Source of the DNA: a virus
Strand: one strand, 5' to 3'
IMG/VR virus record: IMGVR_UViG_3300048839_000472
Span: 1 to 30,824 of that record
DNA length: 30,824 nt
The notes under the pieces: generated by a model
Told to the model about the DNA's origin: nothing
Seen by the model: only the letters and a program-made list of their open reading frames with translations
The model's database searches: none
Translations under genes and position numbers: made by a program
Shown here: positions 1,376-27,122 of the stretch, one piece after another
Layout: the number at the start of each line of letters is the position of its first letter
Position numbering within the stretch: the stretch's first letter is position 1

Positions 1376-2056
1376 ATCCGTTATTTGAATTTGGTGACAT
1401 CCTGTAATGGTTGTCTAATGGATAACATTGAGAGGTTTCAATGTTTATAGGCATTCCAGCCTATTAAGAGATGAAAGCAGGCTTCTTCCGGTCCTCTAGT
1501 CCTTGCTCTTGGATCCTACCCGCCTTCTATTTCTTAAAAAAGGGAGAGCTGCGTTCAATGACCAGGAACACTGGTAAGCAAACTCCCCCCTGCATAATCA
1601 GCCTTCAAAATCCTCTGTCTCAACCCATTCGCTGGGGAGAACTCTCATACACCACATAGGCTGATTAACAATCTCATGACATCCATCCACTAAAGATGAT
1701 TGTCATTATTTTACACGTTATTATATATAACGGTGTAATCCAAAAAATCTTCAAGGGAATAACCCCTCAGAAGACAGCGAGTCTGCATGAATATGCAGGA
1801 TACGAGCGTCTGAAACGGGTTATGACCGATCAATTACTCGCAATAAAGAAAACAACATGAAAATTGTCTCTTTAAAAGTTATCAGAAATGACAACATACA
1901 ATCACCATATTCTGGAAAATTCTCGCATGTAATCTAAAAAAGATTTCATACATATATATAACGTGTAAACTTAGATACAAAGACAGAAAAATTTCTTTTC
2001 CTTGTATCTTGGAATACTCAGCAAAACTGAGTAAGGACATCCATATGGAGAACTCC
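1376..2056. other. gene-poor stretch of the leftward arm
   Basis: No convincing gene is seen on either strand. Short frames are present but lack good starts and normal composition. The stretch holds several inverted repeats: AATCAGCCT at 1596-1604 pairs with AGGCTGATT at 1658-1666, ACCAG/CTGGT flanks a 5-nt loop near 1561-1575, and CTGCAT/ATGCAG forms a hairpin near 1783-1798. It also holds the AT-rich palindrome listed separately. It may be a long 3' or 5' untranslated or regulatory segment. No tRNA could be fitted. Confidence 0.5.
1711..1738. repeat. AT-rich imperfect palindrome, operator-like
   Basis: TTACACGTTAT at 1711-1721 faces ATAACGGTGTAA at 1727-1738, forming an 11-bp inverted repeat with one unpaired G and a 5-base centre. 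The half-site TTTACACGTTATATATA recurs on the minus strand at about 1952-1970. A palindrome with a dispersed copy in a non-coding region looks like a protein-binding site more than a terminator, because no T-tract follows. Confidence 0.45.
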
Positions 2057-2209
2057 TTATCGTCGAAACTGAGTAAGGGTCTCCCCTTGGAGGGACGCCC
2101 CATTGCTGGGGTATCCTGCGCATACTCCGATGACTGCTGCCAACAGGCAACCGCCAACGAAGATGCAGAACAGGACGCTAAGCCCATTGTTCAGATCTTG
2201 CGTATTCAT
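2057..2209 (-). CDS. 50-aa single-span membrane protein
   Basis: I chose the ATG at 2209, giving MNTQDLNNGLSVLFCIFVGG followed by CLLAAVIGVCAGYPSNG and a polar tail ending TQFRR. A single hydrophobic helix (about residues 10-28) with several Cys residues is the only clear feature. It lies 52 bases downstream of the 216-aa gene on the same strand. A longer in-frame reading upstream to 2317 would overlap that gene heavily and is less likely. Function is unknown; a small phage membrane peptide is the safest description. Confidence 0.45.
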   Translation of the reverse strand: MNTQDLNNGLSVLFCIFVGGCLLAAVIGVCAGYPSNGASLQGETLTQFRR

Positions 2210-2261
2210 GTTATTGTAATTTTGATTCCTCTCCCCAGCTTTTACACTGGAGAGTGGAGTC

Positions 2262-2912
2262 TTAGACCAATTCGGCGACGACGTGCTTGCGGGCTGCGTC
2301 CAACTTGGCCTGGGCAACTTTGCCTTGGCTGTTGGTAAAGCCGGACAGATCGACCTGGTTTGCCGACGCGAGGGCGAGCAAAGACGCAGAGTCCATGCCC
2401 ATGATGCTCTCTTCGGAGAGATCGGGTTCGCTCGATACTGCCGGAGTGCTGGGACGTGCTCCGAGGATGGAAGCGAGGTCGTTAACCTTCTTCGTAGCCT
2501 GGGGCAGCGGAGAGCATCCGACTACGCGCAATACCTGCTTACCGGCGCGGTTTTCGACATGGCCGATGGAGAGTTTTACTACTTCTCCGTTCTCGGGGAT
2601 GTAGCGGGAATTCTCGCGGAAGCCTTGGGAAAGACCGAGGTTCAGGGCAGTCTGGAAATCGCCGTTGTTGAACGCCTCAACCAGCTCTTCGACTTGGTCG
2701 GGAGCAATGGCCTGGAAGTTACAGATGATCCGGGTCTCCCCGGTCTCTTCATCAACGAATTCGTTGCGGCCCACACACTTGGCGGTAAGGCTGCCCTCAC
2801 CACTTACAGTGTTCCGCAATTTAGCGTTGACAAGGCGTTCAAAGGCTTCGTAGGTCATCTCCCTGGGAGTACCGTCGCCATTGACCAATTGGATAACATC
2901 ATTCGGGTTCAT
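2262..2912 (-). CDS. 216-aa protein with C-terminal HeH/SAP-like segment, function unknown
   Basis: It starts MNPNDVIQLVNGDGTPREMT and is the first gene of the leftward arm. The central part (about residues 45-130) is beta-rich, with two Cys and a conserved-looking run (NSRYIPENGEVVKLSIGHVE) that suggests an OB-like or other small barrel fold. After a low-complexity linker (RPSTPAVSSEPDLSEES), the last 40 residues (SLLALASANQVDLSGF...) resemble the helix-extended-helix/SAP nucleic-acid-binding hairpin. Together this suggests a DNA- or RNA-binding protein such as a single-strand binder, but no family is certain. Plus-strand frames over it are composition shadows. Confidence 0.7.
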   Translation of the reverse strand: MNPNDVIQLVNGDGTPREMTYEAFERLVNAKLRNTVSGEGSLTAKCVGRNEFVDEETGETRIICNFQAIAPDQVEELVEAFNNGDFQTALNLGLSQGFRENSRYIPENGEVVKLSIGHVENRAGKQVLRVVGCSPLPQATKKVNDLASILGARPSTPAVSSEPDLSEESIMGMDSASLLALASANQVDLSGFTNSQGKVAQAKLDAARKHVVAELV

Positions 2913-3306
2913 ATGAACAAATTGAGGTGAATAAATGCTATGAAGTTGACAGCCTTCGGCCAGAGGAACCCCCCGGGCATTGAAAACTGTCCAGACTTAG
3001 TGGGGGTCTTCATTCAGGTGGTCCCCCCTCTCTCATCTCTCCAAAATTTTTTCTCAACATTCCCACAGAAAATTATCACTCTAATATTTTCCCAAAAATT
3101 TTTCCCAAATAAAATCGATCCAACATTCAAAATATACCCCCGGTATCGAAAAATTACTCAAAAAATCTTCAAAAATTAAGACCCCAAAAATTTTTTTTCA
3201 ATTTTTTGAAATTTTTTTTCTCAATGTTTACGCGGGTTTCAGCCGATTTTGACCTTTTTTGTTTAACTCTTTTTAAAAAAACCCCCTTTTTATCATTTTT
3301 TTTTAT

Positions 3307-3314
3307 TATATTTG
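3307..3314 (+). promoter_or_regulatory. Bacteroidota-type -7 box (TATATTTG)
   Basis: TATATTTG matches the TAnnTTTG -7 consensus used by the primary sigma factor of Bacteroidota. It lies directly upstream of the structured leader and about 475 bases before the first rightward gene. No good TTTG -33 element is present at the usual distance, only a T/C-rich run, so the call is moderate. It is the best candidate for the start of the long rightward operon. Confidence 0.4.
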
Positions 3315-3324
3315 CAACAGTTTT

Positions 3325-3780
3325 ACATGATTCTCAAAGTAGTGTAAAATTAGCCTACGCCCATAGACCTAAGGAATCTATGGAAACGGAACGCGCCTTA
3401 GGCCCCATTCTACAAGGCTATGGGATTTCCTAAGAGCACAGACGTCGGATTGTAGCCACTAAATAAGTGGTGAGTTTTCTCCGATAGGGCGACAAGGATT
3501 AGATATAAACCAGGATACGAGGGAGATTAGACAAAAGTATTGGTCTGCTTGAATTAACAAGATGATTTTATTTCCTCCGTGGTGTAAGAAATTGAAGATG
3601 CAAATCTGAGATTTTATCGGACTGTCTTGGCGAAGTTCTTTTCTGAAATAAGACCCGCGCTTTTCCGCTAAGAAAAAAGTGAAGGGGGAAGCCTTGGTCT
3701 GTCTGGTTGAATCGTATATCAGATTATCTGTTATGATGATAATACAGATTATACGATATTGAATATTCAGGAATGAAGCT
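3325..3780 (+). ncRNA. candidate structured leader RNA of the rightward operon
   Basis: About 450 non-coding bases follow the promoter box and are richer in G/C than the genes after them. Helices visible by eye are: CCCATAG 3360-3366 with CTATGGG 3418-3424; CCTAAGG 3368-3374 with CCTTAGG 3396-3402; CCACT/AGTGG around 3456-3470; and ATCGTATA/TATACGAT with an inner ATCTGT/ACAGAT near 3712-3758. CCATAG can alternatively pair with CTATGG at 3378-3383, and CCTTAGG with CCTAAG at 3429-3434, so mutually exclusive folds are possible. It fits no tmRNA, RNase P or group I core that I could find. Confidence 0.4.
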
Positions 3781-3788
3781 ACACGCGC

Positions 3789-4010
3789 ATGAGTTATGCA
3801 AGATTAAAAAAGGAAGTTGATCGATTGATTGGCTTTCTTGAGGCGCCAGATTTAGTGGTGGTTATTGATGATGATGATAACAGGACAATGTTTTGTTACA
3901 ATCAAGAAGTTTTAAGAGATATGCTCGTAAGGCTACGGATGGAAGAAAATTCTGATGATGAACTTAAAGTACGCTCTGTTAGAAGTAAAGAAGCTATATC
4001 CCAAAGTTAA
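3789..4010 (+). CDS. 73-aa hypothetical protein
   Basis: First gene of the rightward train (MSYARLKKEVDRLIGFLEAP...). It begins with a short amphipathic helix. Next come a hydrophobic strand with an acidic cluster (LVVVIDDDDNRTM) and a second helix (NQEVLRDMLVRLRMEE). The last 18 codons overlap the next gene in another frame. No family is recognised. Its position just behind the leader makes it the first product of the operon. Confidence 0.55.
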   Translation: MSYARLKKEVDRLIGFLEAPDLVVVIDDDDNRTMFCYNQEVLRDMLVRLRMEENSDDELKVRSVRSKEAISQS

Positions 4011-4188
4011 TATAGATATAGAAGTTAAGGATAATGAGTTTTGTTGGTATATTTATGGTATGCCGTATAAGAAAGATTTGAAGAAAGTAGTAAAGAAAAA
4101 TGATGGGATAAAATTTAAGATTCCAATTGAATTGTGGAATGACGAAGAAACCGTCATTAGAGTTTTAAAAGAAACGTTGCTGAAATGA
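3955..4188 (+). CDS. 77-aa hypothetical protein
   Basis: It starts at the first of two adjacent ATGs (MMNLKYALLEVKKLYPKVNI...; 3958 is equally possible). The sequence is Lys-rich with alternating strands and helices (DNEFCWYIYGMPYKKDLKKV). It overlaps the gene before by about 56 bases and the gene after by 4 bases (ATGA), so it is likely translationally coupled. No family is recognised. Confidence 0.55.
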   Translation: MMNLKYALLEVKKLYPKVNIDIEVKDNEFCWYIYGMPYKKDLKKVVKKNDGIKFKIPIELWNDEETVIRVLKETLLK

Positions 4189-4589
4189 TAGAAGAAACCG
4201 AAGCTATAGAGGTATTTTATGGAGAAGTTCCTTTATGGCCTACTGATGTAAAATTAAAAGTGTTTATTGGGAATCTTGGGATTCCTGATGTAATGACACG
4301 AATGTTAGGAGAAAGTCCTTTACATTGGGCAGAGATAGTTGGAAACAACGGTTCTTTGTCTTTCTTTTTTAAAGGGATGAATAATGAAGATTCCATTGTT
4401 ATGTATCTTGATGATAATAGAGTGGATCTTCTAATTAGAGAGGCTTTGGCTTCTGTATGGATTCTTGCTCAAAAAGAGAAGATAAAGATTAATGAAGATA
4501 ATTTGAGATTGATTTCAGACTTTGTAGTATATATTGTAAAGGCTGTTTTCAATTATAAAAGACATGGGTTAGATGAATCCGAGGATTAA
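4185..4589 (+). CDS. 134-aa hypothetical protein
   Basis: Starts MIEETEAIEVFYGEVPLWPT. It is acidic, with an N-terminal beta-rich half and a C-terminal helical half (LIREALASVWILAQKEKIKI). It overlaps the winged-helix gene by 17 bases. No motif or family is recognised. The start codon overlaps the stop of the preceding gene (ATGA), which supports the chosen start. Confidence 0.6.
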   Translation: MIEETEAIEVFYGEVPLWPTDVKLKVFIGNLGIPDVMTRMLGESPLHWAEIVGNNGSLSFFFKGMNNEDSIVMYLDDNRVDLLIREALASVWILAQKEKIKINEDNLRLISDFVVYIVKAVFNYKRHGLDESED

Positions 4590-8872: not shown

Positions 8873-9046
8873 ATGGCAATAAAAATTTTTGACCCAATTA
8901 TTTATGCTAACTGGGATCCAGATGAAGAGTTGGTAAACGAAGCAGCAAAGCTTATTCATGAGGCCAATGAAATACTTGATGAAGATGACGAAGATATTGA
9001 GGAAGGTACACAACTAGAGTTTGATTTTGGTGACGAAAAAGATTAA
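8873..9046 (+). CDS. 57-aa acidic hypothetical protein
   Basis: A short frame starting MAIKIFDPIIYANWDPDEEL and ending LEFDFGDEKD. It is strongly acidic in its second half (EILDEDDEDIEEGTQ), and the leader before its ATG is A/T-rich as for its neighbours. It ends 17 bases inside the chosen start of the large terminase, so the two are probably coupled. An acidic mini-protein next to a terminase could be a regulator or DNA mimic; this is speculation. Confidence 0.55.
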   Translation: MAIKIFDPIIYANWDPDEELVNEAAKLIHEANEILDEDDEDIEEGTQLEFDFGDEKD

Positions 9047-12000
9047 CTTTAAAGTAGCAAGAATATGGGATGACTATGAAAGTAGCATCCCAGTAGATAT
9101 TCTAGAAAAATATCCAGAGCTGTATGGCCCGATCACACATATGAGTTTAAAGAATCCAGTGCGCAATACCGATGAGCCGCTGCTATTTTTTAATGATGTT
9201 AGTGTGTTTAGGCCAGCAGCCCTGGCTTTTGAAAAATCAAGGCAAGAAGCTAAAGGAACAAGCCTAGATCCTAAATATACTTATGCCCTGGAGGGGACAA
9301 AAGCGTATAAAGATTTTTGGGAAGAAGAAAGGCGTAGATGTTTGCAAGGATATGAGCCTATTATTGATGGCGAACCTTGCGGTGTTAGAATTACAGGAGA
9401 GCACTATTTTTATCTTAACTACTGTATTATTGGTAAAGTAGTAAAGAATGAAATGACTGGTGAGGATACCGAAGAATTGGGATTCCCTAATTTTGCTTCG
9501 ATGGATTATTACTGGTTCAAGGAACTGGAAAAATCAGAGAACCCGCCAGAAGGAAAGGAAAAAGAAAACTTAATTGTGGCCAAGGCGAGACGAAAAGGAT
9601 ACCAGCAACCTAATTCGGAAATAGTAATGACTCCTAATGGTTATTCTACTATGGGTCAACTTAAACCTGGAGATAAAGTTTTAACGCCAACAGGAGAAGC
9701 CACTATATTAGAATATTATCCGCAAGGGCTTTCAGATGTCTATGAAATTGAGTTATATGATGGCAGGAAAGTTACTTGTGGTTTGGAGCATTTGTGGGAA
9801 GTTTATAGTAGAGTAGGAAGAAACGGAGAAAGACAGAAAAAAGTTGTAGATACAGAATACCTTTTGAAGCAACAATTAAAAAAACGTAATGCCTATCAAT
9901 ACTACCTTCCTATTAACGAAGAAGTTCAGTATGAAGAAAAAGAATTGCCTATCCCAGCATATACAATGGGTTGTATTCTTGGTGACGGTAATGTAAGTAA
10001 ACAGTTTAAAATTTCTGGTATAGACGATGAAATTTTTAATTATTGTTTAGAAGAGTTGGAAAATTATTACTCCGGTGGCGTGTATGAAATAGGAGCAGTT
10101 TATAAAGCAAACAAACAGTATGTTTTTGCTTGTTCACCAGAAACTAAAAACTATTATAAGCAAAAATATGGAACTTCTAAATTTGCTAATAGCGTTAACC
10201 CAGTATATGAGGAATTAAAAAAATTAAACTTAGACTGTACGTCGGATAAAAAATATATTCCTTATGAATATAAAATAGGTAGTGTAGAACAACGTTATAA
10301 CCTGGTTAGAGGTCTTATGGATACCGACGGTTCCATTACAAAAGATGGATACATTTCTTTTTCTAATGTGTCAAAACGACTTGTGTTGGATTTACAAGAA
10401 GTTTTGTACTCTTTAGGTATTGTATCAGTTTTTAGGCAGAGAAAAGATGGCTTATACATACTTTATATTGGCACAAGTAAATCTGTGTTCAAAATAAGCA
10501 GAAAGCTAAATAGAATAAAGCCTGAGATAGAACATAGAAACTATATTCCGATAGTTTCAATAAAAAAGTTAGATTATCAAGAGGAAAGTAGCTGTATCTT
10601 AATAGATTCAGACAATCACCTATATTTAACCAGAGGCTATATAGTAACGCATAATTCGTATAAAAACGCAGCTGGCGCCGTATGGAAATATACTTTCTTT
10701 AAAAACTCTAGGATTATTATTGGTGCTGAGTTTGGACAAAAGGCCAAGCAAACTTTTGATATGTGTTTGAACATGATTGATTTTCTTAATCAAAACACTG
10801 AATTCAGAAGTCCTTGGACCCATAGGAAAAGCGCAGAAACTAAATGTTATATTCGTTCTGGTGTAGAAGTAGAAAAAAATGGTAGAAAGTATACTAAAGG
10901 TAAAAAGTCTATTATCGAAACTGTTTCTTTTAGTAATAAACCAGATGCGGCTGCTGGTGCTTCTGCCACAAGAATATTGATCGAGGAGGCTGGTTTGATT
11001 ACAAATCTTAAAAAAGCCTGGAAATTTACTGAACCGTTATTAAGATCTGGCAAGAAAAGAAAAGGGATCGCAATTGCCTTTGGTTGTGTAACTAAAGGAA
11101 CAAAATTGTGGACTGCCGAAGGAAAAGTTGTAAATGTAGAAGACGTAAAATTACATGATCAGATCCTCGGTTATAATAAAATTGGCGCATCAAAAGAATC
11201 TGTCTCTTATTTGCAAGAACCCGCCAAGAAAGACTGTTACTATATTAAAACAGACAAAGGAACAGAATTAGAGTGCTCTTTTGACCACCCTATTCTGGCT
11301 AGTAATAACCATTCCTATTATCGGTTTAGAAAATATCTTGATAAGAAAACCCGTATAACAGAAAAAAGGGTTAAAAAGGCCTCCTTTGTTAGAGCGGAAG
11401 ATTTACAAAGGAAAGATCAAGTTGCTGTTATTGATTCAGTTCCTATGTGGGGAAAAGAACATCTTTTAGAAGCAAGATTTATAGGATGGTTAATAGGGGA
11501 CGGTTCTTATGGTTTCGATAAAACCCCGGTGCTATCCACAGAAAATGATGAGTTGTTTTCTCACGTTAAAAATAACTATGAACATACAGTAGAAAGGGAA
11601 AGAAAAACCAAGTTGGGCCGAATTTATCGCGAAATAAGAATAAAGGGCATTACTAAATATCTTAGACACACTGGGATTTATGGGCAGACTAAACAAGCAA
11701 AAAGATTGCCGATAGATATACACAAGTATAATCGAAAAAGTTTAGCAGAATTGCTTGGTGGACTGTTCGATACAGATGGATGTGTATTTTATAAAAGAGA
11801 TAAAAACGGACATTTAAATGGTTATATAAACTTCACTACGGCCGTAAAAGAATTGGCCGAAGAAGTTAAATACCAACTGATTAAGTTTGGGATTCATGCA
11901 AGTGTTGAGACAATTAAATCAAAACCAAGAGACAGAAAGATACAGGATAAAAGTATTTATTATAGGGTTTCTATAAGAGAGTCTGTTTCTATAAAAAGAT

Positions 12001-14630
12001 TTTATCGCCACATATCTTTTAGAGTAAAATATAAACAGCAAGCCTTGTCCAATTTTTATCGTCTTATCAAGAAAGAAAAGAAGATTGGCATCACCAAAAG
12101 CGCGCTTGTATTTAGAAATGGGAAAGAATTTGCAACAGTTTTATATCTTAATGGAGTAAGATTTGAAACTATAAAAGAGATAAAACCTATTGGAGAAAAA
12201 GATATTTACAATCTTACTGCTGAAGGAACAAATACTTATTTAGCAAACAACATTATTACCCACAATACGGGCGGGGATATGTCCGGTTCTACACAAGATT
12301 TTGCTGATATGTTCAATGATCCTTCTTCTCATATGTTTAAGGTATACGATAATATATATGAGGAACACGACTCTAGGGGGAAATGTGGTTGGTTTGTTGA
12401 CGATATGTGGTTTAGAGAAGGTGCCTGGGTTGAGATCAATGGCATTAGATATGAAGCTGTTGATGATAATGGCAATGCTTTAAAATGGGTAGCTGAAATA
12501 GACCTTAATCAAGAAAGAGCAAAGATAGCTGGAAAAGATAAAGAGGCTTATACAGTTGCCTTGTCGCAGTATTGTAAAAGTGTATCTGAGGCTTTCCTTA
12601 TTACTTCTGGTAATGTTTTTCCTGTTGCAGAATTGTCTTCTAGATTGAGTGTATTAAAAACTCCTGAAGGACAAAGGTTAGCAGGGACAAACGGAGATCT
12701 CGTAGAAAAATCCGGAGTTGTATATTTTCAACCAGATTTAACTGGGAAAAAAGAACCTATAAATCGTTATCCTACACCGAAAAGCAAAAAGAATTTAGAT
12801 GGTTGTGTTGTACAATTTGAGGCGCCGTTGGAAATAAACGGTAAAGTCCCTTCTGGTGCTTATATTATTTCCATTGACCCTCTTGGTATTGATGGTGCCG
12901 GCGAGGAATCACTTGTAGCTATATATTGTTTAAAGACAAAAAGATATGCACATTTAATTGGACACGATGAGATTGTTATGTCTTATGTTGGGAGGCCAGC
13001 AGTAGATCCTCTTGATGCTACTAATTGGATTCTTCTTAAAATGGCAAAATACTATAACGCAAAGGTTACACATGAAAATGATAGAAATGGTGCTGCAATA
13101 AGAAATTTCTTTATTCAACAAAAAGAAGTTGGAAGATTATTAAGGCCACCTGCTGACATTGTAGAAAAACATGTAACCCACTCTACTACTAATTTAAGAA
13201 AATCTGGCCACTCAATGGGTAACGTAAAGTTAAAAGAATTGGGTGAAATTTATCTTAAGAGATGGTTATTAGAGAGGAGGGGACTTAATCCAAGCAATGG
13301 GCTAGAAGAATTAAATTTAGATAAAATAAATGATCGTGGCCTTTTAGAAGAGTTGATATCCTATAATAGAGATGGAAACTTTGACAGATGCGTTGCAAAA
13401 GGAAGCCAAGTTCAAACATTAAAGGGTAAAGTTCCAATAGAATATCTTAATATTGGTGATCTTGTTTTAACTCATACAGGACATTATAAACCAGTAATAA
13501 AAACAACATCTACTATACAAGAACTTACAACCGAAGTTTATGTTGTGGGGCAAAATGAACCGTTAATTTGTACCCACGACCACCCAATATTAATTTCAGA
13601 ACAAGATAAACGGGCTGGCAACAGGCACTGGAAATTTAACGAAAAAACCTGTTTTAAATCCGCCGCATCTTTAACTCCTTACAGAGATTTTGTGTTTATT
13701 CCTAAGGAACAAGAGATCAAATACTTTTTAACTCCAGAAGAGGAGTACTTGGTGGGATGGTATGTTGGAGATGGTTATCTGCATAAGAATAGGCTAACAA
13801 TAACTTTTGGAAAAAAAGAAATGGAACAAGCAAAGAAAATTGCGGATATCATGGATAAAATTTCTTTGCAACACGATTTAACGCCCCACCATAACACAAA
13901 GCCAACAGCAACAATAAAAGATATGGGGTCTCATATATTAGTATCTAGAAATTCTCCATATATTGCAAGCATATGTAAAACATACGGTGGAGTTGCAAAC
14001 AATAAAAAACTGGAATTAAATAGTATAGAGGCCGCCATAGGGATTTTAGAAGCAGAAGGAAGTTTAAAGATTACGCCGAGGGTGGCAGTAGAAGTTTCTA
14101 TGTGTGATAAACATGTCATAGAAAAAACGAGACAAATTTTAATTAATTATGGAATATGGTCCACACAAAGAACTTTCAAGGTTAAAAATTACAAGAGTAT
14201 GTATAAGTTGACTATTCCACATCTGTACGTAGATCGCCTTACAAAATATACTCAAATGTACAAAACCAACCTCCGGGTAAAACAAATGCGAAACGTTGCT
14301 ATTGAAACGGAAAACGGGTTTTTAACTCCCGTAAAAAAGGTGGTTACAGAAAGAAAAAAACAATTGTTTTTCAATTGTGAAATTGAAGAACACCACACTT
14401 ATGTTTGCCAAGGTTTTGTTTCCCACAACTGTTTAGCATTTATGGGTTGTGTTTTACAACAAGAACAGATGCTTCTCTATATGAAAGACACAGAAGAAAA
14501 CGAAGAGAGAGATGAGGCTGCCGAATTTTTTAAAGAAAGGCTGCTGTATTTACCATCAATAAACAAAAAATATTATCATGAGCGAGTTAACACTAAGGTA
14601 TCGTCCGCCACAAAGAATCCCGTTTTCTAA
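9030..14630 (+). CDS. terL: phage terminase large subunit, interrupted by three inteins
   Basis: The precursor is 1,866 residues from the GTG at 9030 (MTKKINFKVARIWDD); a TTG at 9021 is an alternative. Removing three inteins leaves about 774 residues, normal for crAss-like large terminases. The motor packages DNA into the prohead using ATP and cuts it with an RNase H-like nuclease. Visible motifs in spliced order: Walker A (KARRKGY|SYKNAAG, intein 1 at the bar), Walker B (RILIEEAG, Glu652-653 of the precursor), the coupling motif (GIAIAFG|TGGDMSG, intein 2), nuclease motif I (YIISIDPLGIDG, Asp1283), motif II (HENDRNG), and motif III (GNFDR|CLAFMGCVL, intein 3). The 3' end overlaps the portal start by 53 bases. 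The protein can only work after triple protein splicing. Confidence 0.95.
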   Translation: MTKKINFKVARIWDDYESSIPVDILEKYPELYGPITHMSLKNPVRNTDEPLLFFNDVSVFRPAALAFEKSRQEAKGTSLDPKYTYALEGTKAYKDFWEEERRRCLQGYEPIIDGEPCGVRITGEHYFYLNYCIIGKVVKNEMTGEDTEELGFPNFASMDYYWFKELEKSENPPEGKEKENLIVAKARRKGYQQPNSEIVMTPNGYSTMGQLKPGDKVLTPTGEATILEYYPQGLSDVYEIELYDGRKVTCGLEHLWEVYSRVGRNGERQKKVVDTEYLLKQQLKKRNAYQYYLPINEEVQYEEKELPIPAYTMGCILGDGNVSKQFKISGIDDEIFNYCLEELENYYSGGVYEIGAVYKANKQYVFACSPETKNYYKQKYGTSKFANSVNPVYEELKKLNLDCTSDKKYIPYEYKIGSVEQRYNLVRGLMDTDGSITKDGYISFSNVSKRLVLDLQEVLYSLGIVSVFRQRKDGLYILYIGTSKSVFKISRKLNRIKPEIEHRNYIPIVSIKKLDYQEESSCILIDSDNHLYLTRGYIVTHNSYKNAAGAVWKYTFFKNSRIIIGAEFGQKAKQTFDMCLNMIDFLNQNTEFRSPWTHRKSAETKCYIRSGVEVEKNGRKYTKGKKSIIETVSFSNKPDAAAGASATRILIEEAGLITNLKKAWKFTEPLLRSGKKRKGIAIAFGCVTKGTKLWTAEGKVVNVEDVKLHDQILGYNKIGASKESVSYLQEPAKKDCYYIKTDKGTELECSFDHPILASNNHSYYRFRKYLDKKTRITEKRVKKASFVRAEDLQRKDQVAVIDSVPMWGKEHLLEARFIGWLIGDGSYGFDKTPVLSTENDELFSHVKNNYEHTVERERKTKLGRIYREIRIKGITKYLRHTGIYGQTKQAKRLPIDIHKYNRKSLAELLGGLFDTDGCVFYKRDKNGHLNGYINFTTAVKELAEEVKYQLIKFGIHASVETIKSKPRDRKIQDKSIYYRVSIRESVSIKRFYRHISFRVKYKQQALSNFYRLIKKEKKIGITKSALVFRNGKEFATVLYLNGVRFETIKEIKPIGEKDIYNLTAEGTNTYLANNIITHNTGGDMSGSTQDFADMFNDPSSHMFKVYDNIYEEHDSRGKCGWFVDDMWFREGAWVEINGIRYEAVDDNGNALKWVAEIDLNQERAKIAGKDKEAYTVALSQYCKSVSEAFLITSGNVFPVAELSSRLSVLKTPEGQRLAGTNGDLVEKSGVVYFQPDLTGKKEPINRYPTPKSKKNLDGCVVQFEAPLEINGKVPSGAYIISIDPLGIDGAGEESLVAIYCLKTKRYAHLIGHDEIVMSYVGRPAVDPLDATNWILLKMAKYYNAKVTHENDRNGAAIRNFFIQQKEVGRLLRPPADIVEKHVTHSTTNLRKSGHSMGNVKLKELGEIYLKRWLLERRGLNPSNGLEELNLDKINDRGLLEELISYNRDGNFDRCVAKGSQVQTLKGKVPIEYLNIGDLVLTHTGHYKPVIKTTSTIQELTTEVYVVGQNEPLICTHDHPILISEQDKRAGNRHWKFNEKTCFKSAASLTPYRDFVFIPKEQEIKYFLTPEEEYLVGWYVGDGYLHKNRLTITFGKKEMEQAKKIADIMDKISLQHDLTPHHNTKPTATIKDMGSHILVSRNSPYIASICKTYGGVANNKKLELNSIEAAIGILEAEGSLKITPRVAVEVSMCDKHVIEKTRQILINYGIWSTQRTFKVKNYKSMYKLTIPHLYVDRLTKYTQMYKTNLRVKQMRNVAIETENGFLTPVKKVVTERKKQLFFNCEIEEHHTYVCQGFVSHNCLAFMGCVLQQEQMLLYMKDTEENEERDEAAEFFKERLLYLPSINKKYYHERVNTKVSSATKNPVF
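9603..10655 (+). mobile_element. TerL intein 1 (351 aa, Gln1, LAGLIDADG endonuclease), Walker A site
   Basis: The block begins QQPNSEIVMTPNGYSTMGQL directly after extein ARRKGY and ends YIVTHN before extein Ser. Splicing block B carries CGLEHLWEV, and the C-terminal His-Asn plus Ser+1 are intact. The middle contains both LAGLIDADG helices (MGCILGDGNVS and LVRGLMDTDGSI), so it can plausibly home. The first residue is Gln instead of Cys/Ser, so the normal N-S/O acyl shift at position 1 cannot occur. Such Gln1 inteins are known from phage P-loop proteins and must start splicing by another route. The Walker A location explains selection for precise removal. Confidence 0.9.
11085..12266 (+). mobile_element. 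TerL intein 2 (394 aa, Cys1, LAGLIDADG endonuclease), coupling-motif site
   Basis: Starts CVTKGTKLWTAEGKVVNVED after extein GIAIAFG and ends NNIITHN before Thr+1 (TGGDMSG). The canonical blocks are present: Cys1, block B 'ECSFDHPILAS' with its His, block F 'DIYNLTAEGTNTYLANN', and the C-terminal His-Asn. Two LAGLIDADG motifs (FIGWLIGDGSYG and LLGGLFDTDGCVF) keep their acidic residues, indicating an active homing endonuclease. The Lys/Arg-rich region after the second motif probably binds DNA. It interrupts the loop linking the ATPase to DNA movement. Confidence 0.93.
13389..14429 (+). mobile_element. TerL intein 3 (347 aa, Cys1, LAGLIDADG endonuclease), nuclease-motif site
   Basis: Starts CVAKGSQVQTLKGKVPIEYL after extein GNFDR and ends CQGFVSHN before Cys+1 (CLAFMGCVL). 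Block B is 'ICTHDHPILIS'. The C-terminal block is 'FNCEIEEHHTYVCQGFVSHN'. LAGLIDADG motif 1 is LVGWYVGDGYLH. Motif 2 is AIGILEAEGSLKI, where Glu replaces the second Asp; this is tolerated in many active enzymes. The insertion point is next to the Asp of the third catalytic motif of the nuclease domain, so an unspliced protein would be dead. Confidence 0.92.
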
Positions 14631-18523: not shown

Positions 18524-18781
18524 ATGAATTTTCAAATGGGTGTTTTGCATCCCGTTACTACCATCACTGATGGTATTGGGGGCAATTCGTTTAATTCGCA
18601 ACACCTCATTTCCACATATGGATTGGATAAGCCGCACGATCTTAGCTATGGTTCTGTAGAACTTGCTCAGATTTTTTCTGCTTCTGACAGATATCAAGAC
18701 AAGCCGCTGATCGCCGCTACCGAAGCTAAAGGTAAAAAAATCCTTTTGAAATCGAACCAGTTTACGTGGAAATTACGAGGT
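18524..18781 (+). CDS. major capsid protein, exon 1
   Basis: 86 codons starting MNFQMGVLHPVTTITDGIGG and ending KSNQFTWKLRG at the 5' splice site. Read without splicing, the frame would hit TAA three bases later and give an 86-aa fragment. Spliced to exon 2 it gives WKLRG|YQKQRFRVVEVVE in frame and a total of 509 residues, normal for a crAss-like HK97-fold capsid protein. The last seven exon bases (ACGAGGT) form the P1 helix of the group I intron. The leader is A-rich without a Shine-Dalgarno. Confidence 0.9.
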
Positions 18782-19830
18782 TAATTTTTGATGGCCTCGT
18801 GTAACATGAAAATGTTACTGGAAACTTACTAAATTGCGGGAACATCTTTATTCCCTTGCGTACCAAGCTTTTTTAGTGATAATAAAGTGGCTCAAATTAA
18901 CTACTTGAGATAAGGTAAAAAGCGACAAGGGTTAGACAATCCGCAGCGAAACAACTTAAAATATGGATTACAAAGAACTCTATAAAGAGCACGTGTTAGG
19001 AAAAAGTATAAAGCAACTTGCTGAAGAAAATAATATAGCACGCATAACCATAACAAGAAACTGGAAAAAATTAGGTCTCGAAACTATTATTAGGAGACAC
19101 GGAGAACATTCTTTTGACTACAATTTTTTTCAAAATATAGATAACCAAACAAAAGCATATATTTTAGGGTTTACTCATGCAGATGGCAGTGTTAGGCTCA
19201 AAGGTATAAAATATCAAATTCAAGAACAAGACAAGGAAATTCTTACTTATATTAAAAATTCCTTGAAAGCAACTTATACGGTTAAATCTTATCCGGCTAA
19301 AAAAGTAACAATAATGGGGAAAAAATGTCAAAGTAATGGCTATGCCATTTTAACGTTATTCTCCAGAGAAACTACACGGCAATTAAGAGAGCTTGGGTTT
19401 GAAGATAATAAAACTTTTTCAATAGGTTTTCCGCATTATATTGACGATGATTTAATTCGTCATTTTATCAGAGGAAGTTTTGATGGTGATGGTGGCATCA
19501 CTTTTTATACAGACAAAAGGTATAATCGGATTAACGGAGAGGCTTTTATTTGTGGCAACAGTATTTATATAGATGAATTAAAATTGTTTTTTGAAGCAAG
19601 GGGTTATACACCAACAGCAAGACAAATGGGAAAAATAAAAGTTTTGCGGTTTTTTAAACATGAAGAATTAAAAAGCTTGTATGACTTTCTTTATGAAGAT
19701 GCCGATTTTGCTTTAAATAGAAAAAAGAAAAAATTTGAACAGTTTTTAAATTTTAAGTTAGACGTTCAGAGATCATAATGTAAGCACCGTATAGGTGAAG
19801 GTATGATCCAAATTAGATTAAATTCTAATG
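18782..19830 (+). mobile_element. group I intron (1,049 nt) in the major capsid gene
   Basis: P1: exon ACGAGGT (18775-18781) pairs over 7 bp with GCCTCGT (18794-18800), placing the required U-G pair exactly at the splice site. P10: TTTTTGATG (18785-18793) pairs over 9 bp with TATCAAAAA (19831-19839), and the base before it is G (omega-G, 19830). The core is also present: P element AATTGCGGGAAC at 18832, P4 TGCGG/CCGCA (18835/18941), P5 CCCTTG/CAAGGG (18853/18926), Q AATCCGCAGCGA at 18938, R GTTCAGAGATCAT at 19764, and S AAGGTATGATCC at 19798, with GATCAT/ATGATC pairing R to S. The endonuclease ORF lies between Q and R. Confidence 0.95.
18963..19778 (+). CDS. intron-encoded LAGLIDADG homing endonuclease
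   Basis: A 271-residue protein starting MDYKELYKEHVLGKSIKQLA. Residues about 13-37 form a helix-turn-helix (KSIKQLAEENNIARITITRN). Two LAGLIDADG helices follow: KAYILGFTHADGSV (about 60-73) and IRHFIRGSFDGDGGI (about 161-175), each with its catalytic Asp. So it is a single-chain, probably active enzyme that would cut intron-less capsid genes and spread the intron. It has the A/T-rich, TTA/AAA-rich codon use of a selfish element, unlike the surrounding capsid exons. Its stop codon lies inside the R element of the ribozyme, so the last codons are constrained by RNA structure as well. Confidence 0.92.
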   Translation: MDYKELYKEHVLGKSIKQLAEENNIARITITRNWKKLGLETIIRRHGEHSFDYNFFQNIDNQTKAYILGFTHADGSVRLKGIKYQIQEQDKEILTYIKNSLKATYTVKSYPAKKVTIMGKKCQSNGYAILTLFSRETTRQLRELGFEDNKTFSIGFPHYIDDDLIRHFIRGSFDGDGGITFYTDKRYNRINGEAFICGNSIYIDELKLFFEARGYTPTARQMGKIKVLRFFKHEELKSLYDFLYEDADFALNRKKKKFEQFLNFKLDVQRS

Positions 19831-21102
19831 TATCAAAAACAGCGTTTCCGCGTTGTTGAAGTTGTTGAAACTTCTGCACGTCCTGGTGAGAATGGTGTTG
19901 AGATTACTTTTGTACTTGACAAGGGCTGGCTTCGCGAACCTGATGTCATCATCGGTGAACACAATGAATTTCCTTTGGAGATCGTTGGTGAACCTATACA
20001 AAGAGGTCTTGGCTGGGAATACAAAGCTATCCTCCAAGACAGCTCCAATGGTCGTTACTTCCCATCTACCCTGCTTCAAGTAGGCCGTGAGTTCTGGAAA
20101 GTTTCTACTAGCGTTGCTGATGAAATGAACGAAAAATATGGTACAATCCAGTTCAACTCTGTGTTCGAACTGCGCAGCCACACTGGTAACGTTGCTGAAA
20201 AACTGCAATTTACTGATCGTGCTCTGCGTGTCGATATTAACAACAGAGGCGGTGAAATGCTGAAATATTGGAACGTTCCTTTCCTTGATAATAAAGGCAA
20301 GCGTTACAGCAAGTTCATGACGATGGCTGAGGCCGAAATGATGAACCAAGTTTACGAAGATATTGAGTGGGGTCTGAACTATGGCCGTAAGTCGATCCGC
20401 AAAGGTCCTAACGGTTACCTGAAGCGTACTCCTGCTGGTCTTCGCCAGCAAATGGAAGATGCTCACCAACTGTTGCATAACGGTAACCTGACTCTTACTC
20501 GTCTGGAAGAATGGTTGAATGGTATTTACTATGGCCGTAAAGACGCTACTCCTGCTTCGCGCCGGGTGGTTCTTTCTACTGGCGAAATGGGTGCCAAGAT
20601 GTTCGACCAAATGGTGAAATCTGAGATTTCTAACTTTGTTACTGTTGACAGTCACTTCATTCGCAGTGGTGGTGATTTCCGTCACCTGAGCTTTGGTGTG
20701 CAGTTTACTCACTATGTTGGTGTAAACGGTTTGGATGTTACTGTAATGCTTAACCCGCACTACGATAATCCTGACTACTGTCCTCAAATGCACCCAGTTT
20801 ATACTGATAAGACTATTGATTCGTGGAGAATGGATATTCTTGACTTTGGTTCTACCAGAGAACAGTCTACTGGTGCCATGGGCGATAACATCGCTTTTGT
20901 TGCTGAAGATAATGCCGACTATTACTTTACTACCTTTGGTAAGCATGACCCCAAAACTGGCATGCCGATCAACGATGGTAGCCAAGGTCTGGCCGGTGGT
21001 GTTGGTGGTTATACCACACAAATTGAAAAATCTTATGGTCTTCTGATTCGTGACATTACTCGTTGTGGTGTTGTGAGATTGAATCTGGAATCGATCTATT
21101 AA
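19831..21102 (+). CDS. major capsid protein, exon 2
   Basis: 423 codons from the 3' splice site (YQKQRFRVVEVVETSARPGE...) to TAA. The ATG at 19828-19830 that appears to start this frame is the last intron triplet; its G is the omega-G, so it is not the natural start. Features of a HK97-type capsid are a basic peripheral region (NYGRKSIRKGPNGYLKRTPA), a domain rich in strands, and a Gly-rich C-terminus (GSQGLAGGVGGYTT). Codons are strongly biased to CTG, CGT, GCT and AAC, as expected for the most abundant virion protein. A terminator follows at once. The spliced product is 509 aa. Confidence 0.9.
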   Translation, partial: YQKQRFRVVEVVETSARPGENGVEITFVLDKGWLREPDVIIGEHNEFPLEIVGEPIQRGLGWEYKAILQDSSNGRYFPSTLLQVGREFWKVSTSVADEMNEKYGTIQFNSVFELRSHTGNVAEKLQFTDRALRVDINNRGGEMLKYWNVPFLDNKGKRYSKFMTMAEAEMMNQVYEDIEWGLNYGRKSIRKGPNGYLKRTPAGLRQQMEDAHQLLHNGNLTLTRLEEWLNGIYYGRKDATPASRRVVLSTGEMGAKMFDQMVKSEISNFVTVDSHFIRSGGDFRHLSFGVQFTHYVGVNGLDVTVMLNPHYDNPDYCPQMHPVYTDKTIDSWRMDILDFGSTREQSTGAMGDNIAFVAEDNADYYFTTFGKHDPKTGMPINDGSQGLAGGVGGYTTQIEKSYGLLIRDITRCGVVRLNLESIY

Positions 21103-25243: not shown

Positions 25244-25590
25244 CCAGACTACAAAAACTTCAGTGCTTCTTTTTAGATTTAATGTACAAAAATTATGTGT
25301 CTAAAAAGTACATGATCAACTGCAAAGTTGACGATAATCTTATTAATAAGATTGACCGCTACATTTTTTTGTTAGAACAAGATTGCGATATTCCTAATAA
25401 CATTGATTGTGATATTAATAACATCATTAGTTTCAATGAAGATTTTATTAGTTGTATGGCAACAACTTCTTTTTGTACAGAAAACGGAATTAGTACAGAA
25501 TTATGTACTATAACGATCTATGTCTTAGACTCTCGTCCAGACCCAGAACCAGAAATTTGCACTGTAATTAATATAACAGAAACTCCATGA
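25240..25590 (+). CDS. 116-aa Cys-rich protein
   Basis: The start is ATG at 25240 (MTRLQKLQCFFLDLMYKNYV), overlapping the preceding stop as ATGA; the frame is open to 25228 but only through a TTG. An N-terminal helix is followed by an acidic, Cys-containing middle (LLEQDCDIPNNIDCDINNII) and a beta-rich end with Cys residues. With the previous gene it forms a coupled Cys-rich pair, possibly partners. Function is unknown. Confidence 0.55.
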   Translation: MTRLQKLQCFFLDLMYKNYVSKKYMINCKVDDNLINKIDRYIFLLEQDCDIPNNIDCDINNIISFNEDFISCMATTSFCTENGISTELCTITIYVLDSRPDPEPEICTVINITETP

Positions 25591-27122
25591 TTACTTATTC
25601 AAACATAAGAAGATATTTTAGTTCTCCAACGGATTCTGCTCCCTGGACTTATTTGTTTTACGATGCAAATAATACTGGTTGTGTGACTTTTTCTAATGCG
25701 TCTGGCACAACTAATGCAAACAATGTTTCTACAAACATCACTTTTACTAATGAGTTATGTATTGAAGAAGCCGATATTCGCCTTAGAGTACAAGGTGTAA
25801 ATGGTTGCGTAAACACCGCAAATATTACTTTTGATACTTTACCGTGTTCCAACTTTGTAGTTTCTGATATTGCATATACTGCACCATTTTCTTTTTCTGT
25901 AGCTGCTTCTGGTGGAACTGCCCCTTATACTTATGAGTGGTTTTATGATGATACTGTTTTTACAGCAGGTGGAAATACTAACACACAGCTAATCAACTTT
26001 AGTGTAAACAATACTCCGCTACCAACCAGTACTGATATTGTTTGCAAAGTTACTGATAATTTTGGCTGCTCCGATACAAAAGTTTATACTTATAACTTCT
26101 GTACCGCAACAGCTAGTAATTTAGTTACTTCTCTTAGTTGTTTAGGAACTACTGGGGCTGCTAATAATGCAATGGTGTTTTTAAATGTAACTCCATGTGG
26201 CGGAACAACTATTGACTGGTTACAAGGAATAAGTTTTACAAATGTTCCTAGTGGCATGACTATTACACATCCATATTCTAGTGGAAACTTGGCTGCCCCG
26301 AATAATAAGATCATTATTCAAACTACTAATGCAGTAACCAACGGAACTTACTATCTTACTTACAGAGTAAAAGATAGTAATGGCTTATGGTCTTCTACGG
26401 GGTCATTAACAGTTATTGTTCCTATTTGTTATGAAGGTGTTGTTGTAACTCCTATTACTGCTCAAAATAGAACTATCCAAATTGGTTGCGATGTGGTTCC
26501 AGGGGATATTATAGAAGTTGACATTTCCGATGCAGTAGTCCCTAATACTACTGTTGATTGGACTTCTTTGGTCTTTACTGATAGCGGTACAAATCAAACC
26601 GCAACTACTCTTGGGGAAGATAATGGGTATGATGATGTAACAACTCCAAATGTTACTTATAGTTCGGCAAATAAAATTATTTACTATGAAGTTCCTGCTG
26701 TTAGTGGAACAGACTCATTTGAATGGTCTATTTCAACTTCAGGATCTCCTTCTCTTGTTTCTAATGGTGTAGTTTATACTATTCTTCTTGAATGTGTAGA
26801 TGCTCCAATTGCAGACGATGACGATGCTTGCGTTATCTGCGGAGAAACAATTGAAATAGACATTTTAGCAAATGACGATGCTAACGGTGGGGTTATCAAT
26901 ACAAATAGTGTTGTTTTAACCTCTGGACCTTCTAATGGTGTTGCTATGCTTAGTCTCGACGGTAAGATTACTTATACCGCCAATTCTGGTTTTGCTGGTA
27001 CAGACACTATTACTTATACTGTAAATAATAACAATAATAATCCACAAACATCTAATGAAGCAACTGTAACCATCACTGTAATATGTGCCGGCGAACCTGC
27101 AAATATTAGTGTTTGTAACTAA
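25587..27122 (+). CDS. multi-Ig surface protein with SprB-like and cadherin/VCBS-like domains
   Basis: A 511-residue beta protein (MITYSNIRRYFSSPTDSAPW...). About residues 100-170 match a SprB-type Ig repeat (FSVAASGGTAPYTYEWFYDD), a module of Bacteroidota gliding adhesins and gill-type surface proteins. About 415-505 match a cadherin-like/VCBS-type Ig domain (EIDILANDDANGGVINTN... AMLSLDGKITYTANSGFAGT), with Asp residues for calcium. Between them are two or three further Cys-containing Ig-like domains. There is no signal peptide, so it is probably a virion surface fibre or decoration that binds the host envelope. Confidence 0.8.
   Translation: MITYSNIRRYFSSPTDSAPWTYLFYDANNTGCVTFSNASGTTNANNVSTNITFTNELCIEEADIRLRVQGVNGCVNTANITFDTLPCSNFVVSDIAYTAPFSFSVAASGGTAPYTYEWFYDDTVFTAGGNTNTQLINFSVNNTPLPTSTDIVCKVTDNFGCSDTKVYTYNFCTATASNLVTSLSCLGTTGAANNAMVFLNVTPCGGTTIDWLQGISFTNVPSGMTITHPYSSGNLAAPNNKIIIQTTNAVTNGTYYLTYRVKDSNGLWSSTGSLTVIVPICYEGVVVTPITAQNRTIQIGCDVVPGDIIEVDISDAVVPNTTVDWTSLVFTDSGTNQTATTLGEDNGYDDVTTPNVTYSSANKIIYYEVPAVSGTDSFEWSISTSGSPSLVSNGVVYTILLECVDAPIADDDDACVICGETIEIDILANDDANGGVINTNSVVLTSGPSNGVAMLSLDGKITYTANSGFAGTDTITYTVNNNNNNPQTSNEATVTITVICAGEPANISVCN

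Follow-up and report, generated by a model that had tools for sequence, protein, structure and literature searches.

In a crAss-like phage, the gene for the major capsid protein is interrupted, with a probability that we put at about 94% on the strength of its sequence, by a mobile group I intron whose removal would join the two exons in frame into a message of 509 codons. The gene lies in the IMG/VR virus record IMGVR_UViG_3300048839_000472, and the window analysed here is that whole record, 30,824 bases long. Three same-strand ORFs are present in the capsid region, at 18524-18784 (86 aa), 18963-19778 (271 aa) and 19828-21102 (424 aa), and the RNA segment that contains the middle one very probably cuts itself out of the capsid transcript. 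The features discussed below, with the evidence on which each was assigned, are the following:

18524-18781, + strand: exon 1 of the major capsid gene, 86 codons (end-to-end alignment of the joined protein with intron-less capsid ORFs)
18774-18801, + strand: P1, pairing 18774-18781 with 18794-18801, with U18781.G18794 at the 5' splice site (pairing, fold)
18782-19830, + strand: predicted group I intron of 1049 nt, opening with an in-frame UAA and closing with G19830 (P1/P10, core, model R1, weak RF00028 match)
18785-18801, + strand: guide sequence (within the P1/P10 region)
18785-18793, + strand: P10 5' strand, 9 bp with 19831-19839 (pairing)
18802-18817, + strand: P2 hairpin (pairing, fold)
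18825-18829, + strand: P3 5' strand, pairing with 19780-19784 (pairing)
18834-18946, + strand: P4 (18834-18840 with 18940-18946), enclosing the P5 domain (fold)
18843-18935, + strand: P5 domain, matched by R1 (53.4 bits, E 1.9e-9, model from 33 other phage introns)
18953-18962, + strand: P6 5' strand, 10 bp with 19750-19759, the endonuclease ORF lying in the P6 loop (pairing)
18963-19778, + strand: LAGLIDADG homing endonuclease ORF, 271 aa (LAGLIDADG_3, phrog_4645, motifs)
19769-19809, + strand: P7 (19771-19776 with 19803-19808) with bulged A19770 and G19769-C19809, enclosing the P3 3' strand and P8 (pairing)
19785-19797, + strand: P8 hairpin (pairing, fold)
19812-19829, + strand: P9 hairpin, followed by G19830 (pairing, fold)
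19831-21102, + strand: exon 2 of the major capsid gene, 423 codons and stop (Pfam Crass_capsid E 3.8e-52; phrog_11589, major head protein)

Spliced in silico, 18524-18781 and 19831-21102 give a protein of 509 aa with a single stop, at its end, which bears out an earlier sequence-only reading that had proposed an in-frame join of KLRG to YQKQR and a capsid product of this length. The capsid ORF matches the Crassvirales major capsid protein profile (Crass_capsid, PF23898) with 177.7 bits, for a cut-off of 27. In both the Pfam and the PHROG capsid profiles, the match of the 424-aa ORF starts at position 95, so that the N-terminal part is absent from this ORF, and the missing N-terminus is supplied by the first ORF (exon 1, to 18781). 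The apparent start codon of the 424-aa ORF, ATG 19828-19830, is the last triplet of the intron, as had been claimed, and it ends in the expected terminal G (G19830). One could suppose instead that a free-standing homing endonuclease gene disrupted the capsid gene, that no splicing takes place and that the 424-aa ORF, read from its ATG at 19828, encodes the functional capsid protein. The ATG and the open frame of 424 aa are both present, but the ATG falls where P9 ends, all four close intron-less relatives conserve the first 86 residues, and P1, P10 and the whole core have all been kept, which is unexpected for a broken gene; we consider this scenario very improbable.

The intron reading places the junction between residues 86 and 87, and this position was compared with intron-less capsid genes. 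In close relatives (L001-L004, 65-70% identical) the capsid gene is a single unbroken ORF of 505 or 507 aa. Aligned with these, the joined protein crosses 86/87 without a gap (WKLRG/YQKQRFRV versus WKLSG/HKKQKLRV). A gap or insertion at this point had been named beforehand as an observation that would speak against the join; no gap was seen within 3 residues of it in any of the 24 distinct relatives, four of which are close (L015, L017, L018 and L019) and have full-length ORFs of 504-507 aa. The 24 alignment rows comprise 19 capsid loci together with Fpv3, cr6, cr113, cr272 and cr115; the 19 remained from 28 capsid loci after removal of nine with identical proteins, and they include two shorter ORFs (L039 and L041) and one that starts close to a contig end (L034). 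No internal stop was found within the match in any of the 28 capsid loci. The cr113 capsid protein contains one internal stop; in the annotated gene of cr113_1 (L009, 2213-3682) it appears under table 11 and perhaps reflects stop-codon recoding. A second capsid scan, of which the best 80 of 450 were taken, ranks unsplit genes higher and is thus uninformative on the frequency of splitting. On the intron reading, an annotation of two capsid fragments would be an error, as the sequence-only reading had warned.

Both ends of the intron are marked by pairing with the guide sequence. P1 has an internal guide sequence and, at the 5' splice site, a U.G pair, both characteristic of group I introns; it was proposed with 7 bp and forms with 8 contiguous pairs, the eighth being U18781.G18794. 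P10 has the 9 contiguous pairs attributed to it, although it is "perfect" only if wobble is allowed, its first pair (19831-18793) being U.G; its 3' strand is formed by the first 9 nt of exon 2 and, with the terminal G19830, it defines the 3' splice site in the manner of this intron class. To judge these pairings against chance, the exons were left untouched while the first 60 nt of the intron were dinucleotide-shuffled (n = 2000). A P1 of at least 7 bp alone appeared in 52 of the 2000 shuffles, one accompanied by an adjacent P10 of at least 5 bp in a single shuffle, and one accompanied by a P10 of at least 9 bp in none. In the minimum-energy fold of 18774-18823 (z -4.49), P1 reaches 2 bp further, into the P10 strand. 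P1 and P10 have the guide sequence in common and would exchange between the splicing steps.

With looser thresholds (P1 and P10 each of at least 6 bp), the real sequence offers 13 splice pairs, that is, 12 besides 18781/19831, and in these 12 P10 measures 6 to 8 bp. The capsid frame is kept to the end of the gene in 4 of the 13, and the 509-aa product comes only from 18781/19831. Splicing at another 3' site (e.g., 19856 or 19865), which would trim the capsid protein slightly, might be argued from the other three in-frame pairs, which combine a 6-bp P10 with an open frame and all start from U18782; however, they drop 8, 11 or 22 residues present in the close relatives, their P10 is shorter and no P9 adjoins it, and such a choice of site strikes us as most improbable.

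The elements of the ribozyme core are also present. The sequence-only reading had placed P4, P5, Q, R and S in the right order, and P2 to P9 were located in order, including the P3/P7 pseudoknot, the P/Q and R/S elements and the P7 bulge. The bulged A19770 and the G19769-C19809 pair are expected to form the guanosine-binding site. When the 3' part of the intron (19745-19830) was shuffled, P6, P7 (with its bulged A and outer G-C pair) and P3 appeared in order in 4 of 2000 shuffles, and three local domains fold at lower energy than their shuffles (z -2.3 to -4.5). The presence of P7.1/P7.2 marks subgroup IA of the group I introns. These elements are absent between P7 and P3, where only 3 nt (19777-19779) separate the strands, and by this feature the intron is not one of subgroup IA. 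P7.1/P7.2 are named as class features in a passage of PMC3984707. This intron was not found at this capsid site in any other locus, so covariation lends P3, P7, P8, P9 and P10 no separate support.

A search with the group I intron model had been suggested as a check: at the Rfam gathering threshold, which is a score threshold and not an anatomical feature, nothing is found in the window, but a weak sub-threshold match to RF00028 does appear with lax filters (18773-19006, 19.4 bits versus a gathering score of 50, E 0.035). Its start is correct and its end is misplaced inside the ORF, so that the first half alone is correctly covered. This low score would fit a ribozyme that had decayed and no longer spliced itself, or a chimeric assembly. 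The 0.8-kb ORF in P6, which splits the model, can account for it; moreover, every helix forms and both exons and the endonuclease are open, and we judge decay or chimerism extremely improbable.

A separate model of the P5 domain supports the group I assignment. IMG/VR was scanned with the P4 strands of the intron, leaving the interior free, which returned 59 stretches. Model R1 was built from the interiors of 33 of them with the window excluded; 22 were left out for identical interiors, judged by eye, and four (L079, L082, L086 and L097) as divergent or near-duplicates. R1 matches the window once in 30.8 kb, at the P5 domain with the score listed above, E-values being rough; the P4 strands were preselected by the pattern and carry no weight in this match, of which only the interior counts. 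RF00028 scores above its cut-off at the position of the P4 pattern in 7 of the 20 loci searched and, together with R1, this indicates that the P4-P6 domain is homologous to that of other group I introns. Across the 33 training introns the P5 stem has standard pairs in 229 of 231 cells, many with two-sided (compensatory) changes, a count that takes the best register per row and is thereby biased towards structure; the pair adjoining the stem varies between T-A, C-G, G-C and A-T. The window keeps 5 of 8 pairs in the rigid register on account of an additional A, treated by cmsearch as an insertion, and RNAalifold on alignment A4 recovers the P5 stem only, with 11 pairs. Elsewhere the R1 scores are low: cr118_1 reaches only 21.4 bits (E 0.048) and L015 only 17.5 bits (E 0.36). 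The intron of L006 (IMGVR_UViG_3300031994_000067) has a P4-P5 domain very similar to that of the window, but lies in a different gene, which by eye looks like an RNA polymerase subunit, and bears an ORF with an HNH-like motif, also read by eye. Within about 2.3 kb (1947-4217), this record holds three RF00028 introns above cut-off and another intron-like P4-P5 element.

The 271-aa ORF matches LAGLIDADG_3 (24.2 bits, cut-off 22.5) and the phrog_4645 endonuclease (E 1.1e-34), and two acidic LAGLIDADG-type motifs can be read by eye, ILGFTHADG at residue 67 and FIRGSFDGDG at residue 168. It starts immediately downstream of the P6 5' strand, and at its other end the final codons and the stop overlie the P6 3' strand, R and the P7 5' strand, a layout of ORF overlapping core that is described in part of PMC3984707. 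The warning against the label of a stray endonuclease was justified, with the qualification that the enzyme appears to be the intron's own homing gene and overlaps its core; family and position suggest the homing function. A plausible target is the intron-less junction DNA, which is similar in L018 and L019 and has ATCAAAAACA in common with exon 2. Six stretches of IMG/VR matched the pattern of a close endonuclease relative and none was confirmed. Distant relatives occur in 141 phage records, all below 60% identity, and in two crAss-like neighbourhoods of such enzymes (L013 and L014) neither lies in the capsid gene.

The sequence itself shows both exons, a junction free of gaps, the pairings, the family match of P5 and the family of the endonuclease; splicing, the cut site and mobility we infer, along the following lines. 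In the transcript, the guide sequence would base-pair to both exons, forming P1 where exon 1 ends and P10 where exon 2 begins. Cleavage after U18781 would come from exogenous guanosine bound in P7, and the exon 1 end released in this way would attack after G19830 to yield an in-frame capsid mRNA of 509 codons. On unspliced RNA, ribosomes would halt immediately at the UAA that opens the intron. The ORF in the P6 loop encodes the LAGLIDADG enzyme, which would cut intron-less capsid alleles near KLRG/YQKQ, and the intron would then be copied into these alleles. A bolder and rather doubtful extension is that capsid output is gated on this one RNA: the UAA would stop ribosomes at the 5' splice site, leaving the ribozyme free to fold, translation of the endonuclease over P6/P7 would block splicing, and the enzyme would damage the capsid gene of co-resident intron-less crAss-like phages, acting as a weapon of competition. 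The lead for this weapon came from PhiPA3, for which part of PMC11620839 describes an intron endonuclease helping one phage against a co-infecting phage.

Other features were observed elsewhere in the window. The large terminase ORF (9021-14630, 1869 aa) contains three inteins, at residues 195-545, 689-1082 and 1457-1803 (window positions about 9603-10655, 11085-12266 and 13389-14429), and Pfam reports intein, Hint and LAGLIDADG domains in it; without the inteins, 777 aa align along the Fpv3 terminase (31%, E 6e-85). The first intein seems to start, at 9600-9608, with glutamine rather than cysteine or serine: excised from residue 195 onwards, it leaves GYSYKN, which aligns without a gap to GYSFKN of Fpv3. 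It interrupts what looks like the ATP-binding loop. A literature search for three inteins in a terminase gave no match, which says little. An ORF of 511 aa at 25587-27122 has Ig-like domains and a weak match to Hoc-like head decoration proteins.

Capsid introns are already known in crAss-like phages, and we do not claim the site at residue 86 as unreported. Like the window, Delta and Zeta crAss-like phages have group I introns in the capsid gene, detected there through their endonuclease domains, according to part of Yutin et al. 2021 (PMC7886860), a finding repeated in a passage of a 2023 review (PMC10136315). In an unrelated phage, the Cluster J mycobacteriophage LittleE, splicing of a capsid intron was shown by RT-PCR and protein sequencing, as given in part of Pope et al. 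2013 (PMC3706429), who also name a capsid intron in the lactococcal phage Tuc2009; like ours, the LittleE intron has a LAGLIDADG-type ORF in the major capsid gene, but on the opposite strand. The capsid genes of the Suoliviridae cr118_1 (L010, 1763-3589) and cr50_1 (L184, 1284-3592) are likewise split and deposited as two fragments. In cr118_1 an intron accounts for the split: RF00028 reaches 94.7 bits at 2124-2421, starting at the end of fragment 1 and preceding fragment 2, with no ORF annotated between them, whereas the window intron has its 271-aa ORF. In cr50_1 the split holds a NUMOD4/HNH ORF in place of LAGLIDADG, and the same end of exon 1 and this intervening ORF mean that an intron is probably behind it. 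Exon 1 of both reads 125 residues and ends near residue 121 of the window capsid, compared with 86 in the window, and their intron site therefore differs from ours. Together, these comparisons correct a real annotation error in cr118_1 and cr50_1, deposited as two capsid fragments, of a kind that can conceal the capsid marker gene from surveys; they point to two different intron sites in the capsid genes of crAss-like phages and to a P5 domain common to introns across many phage contigs.
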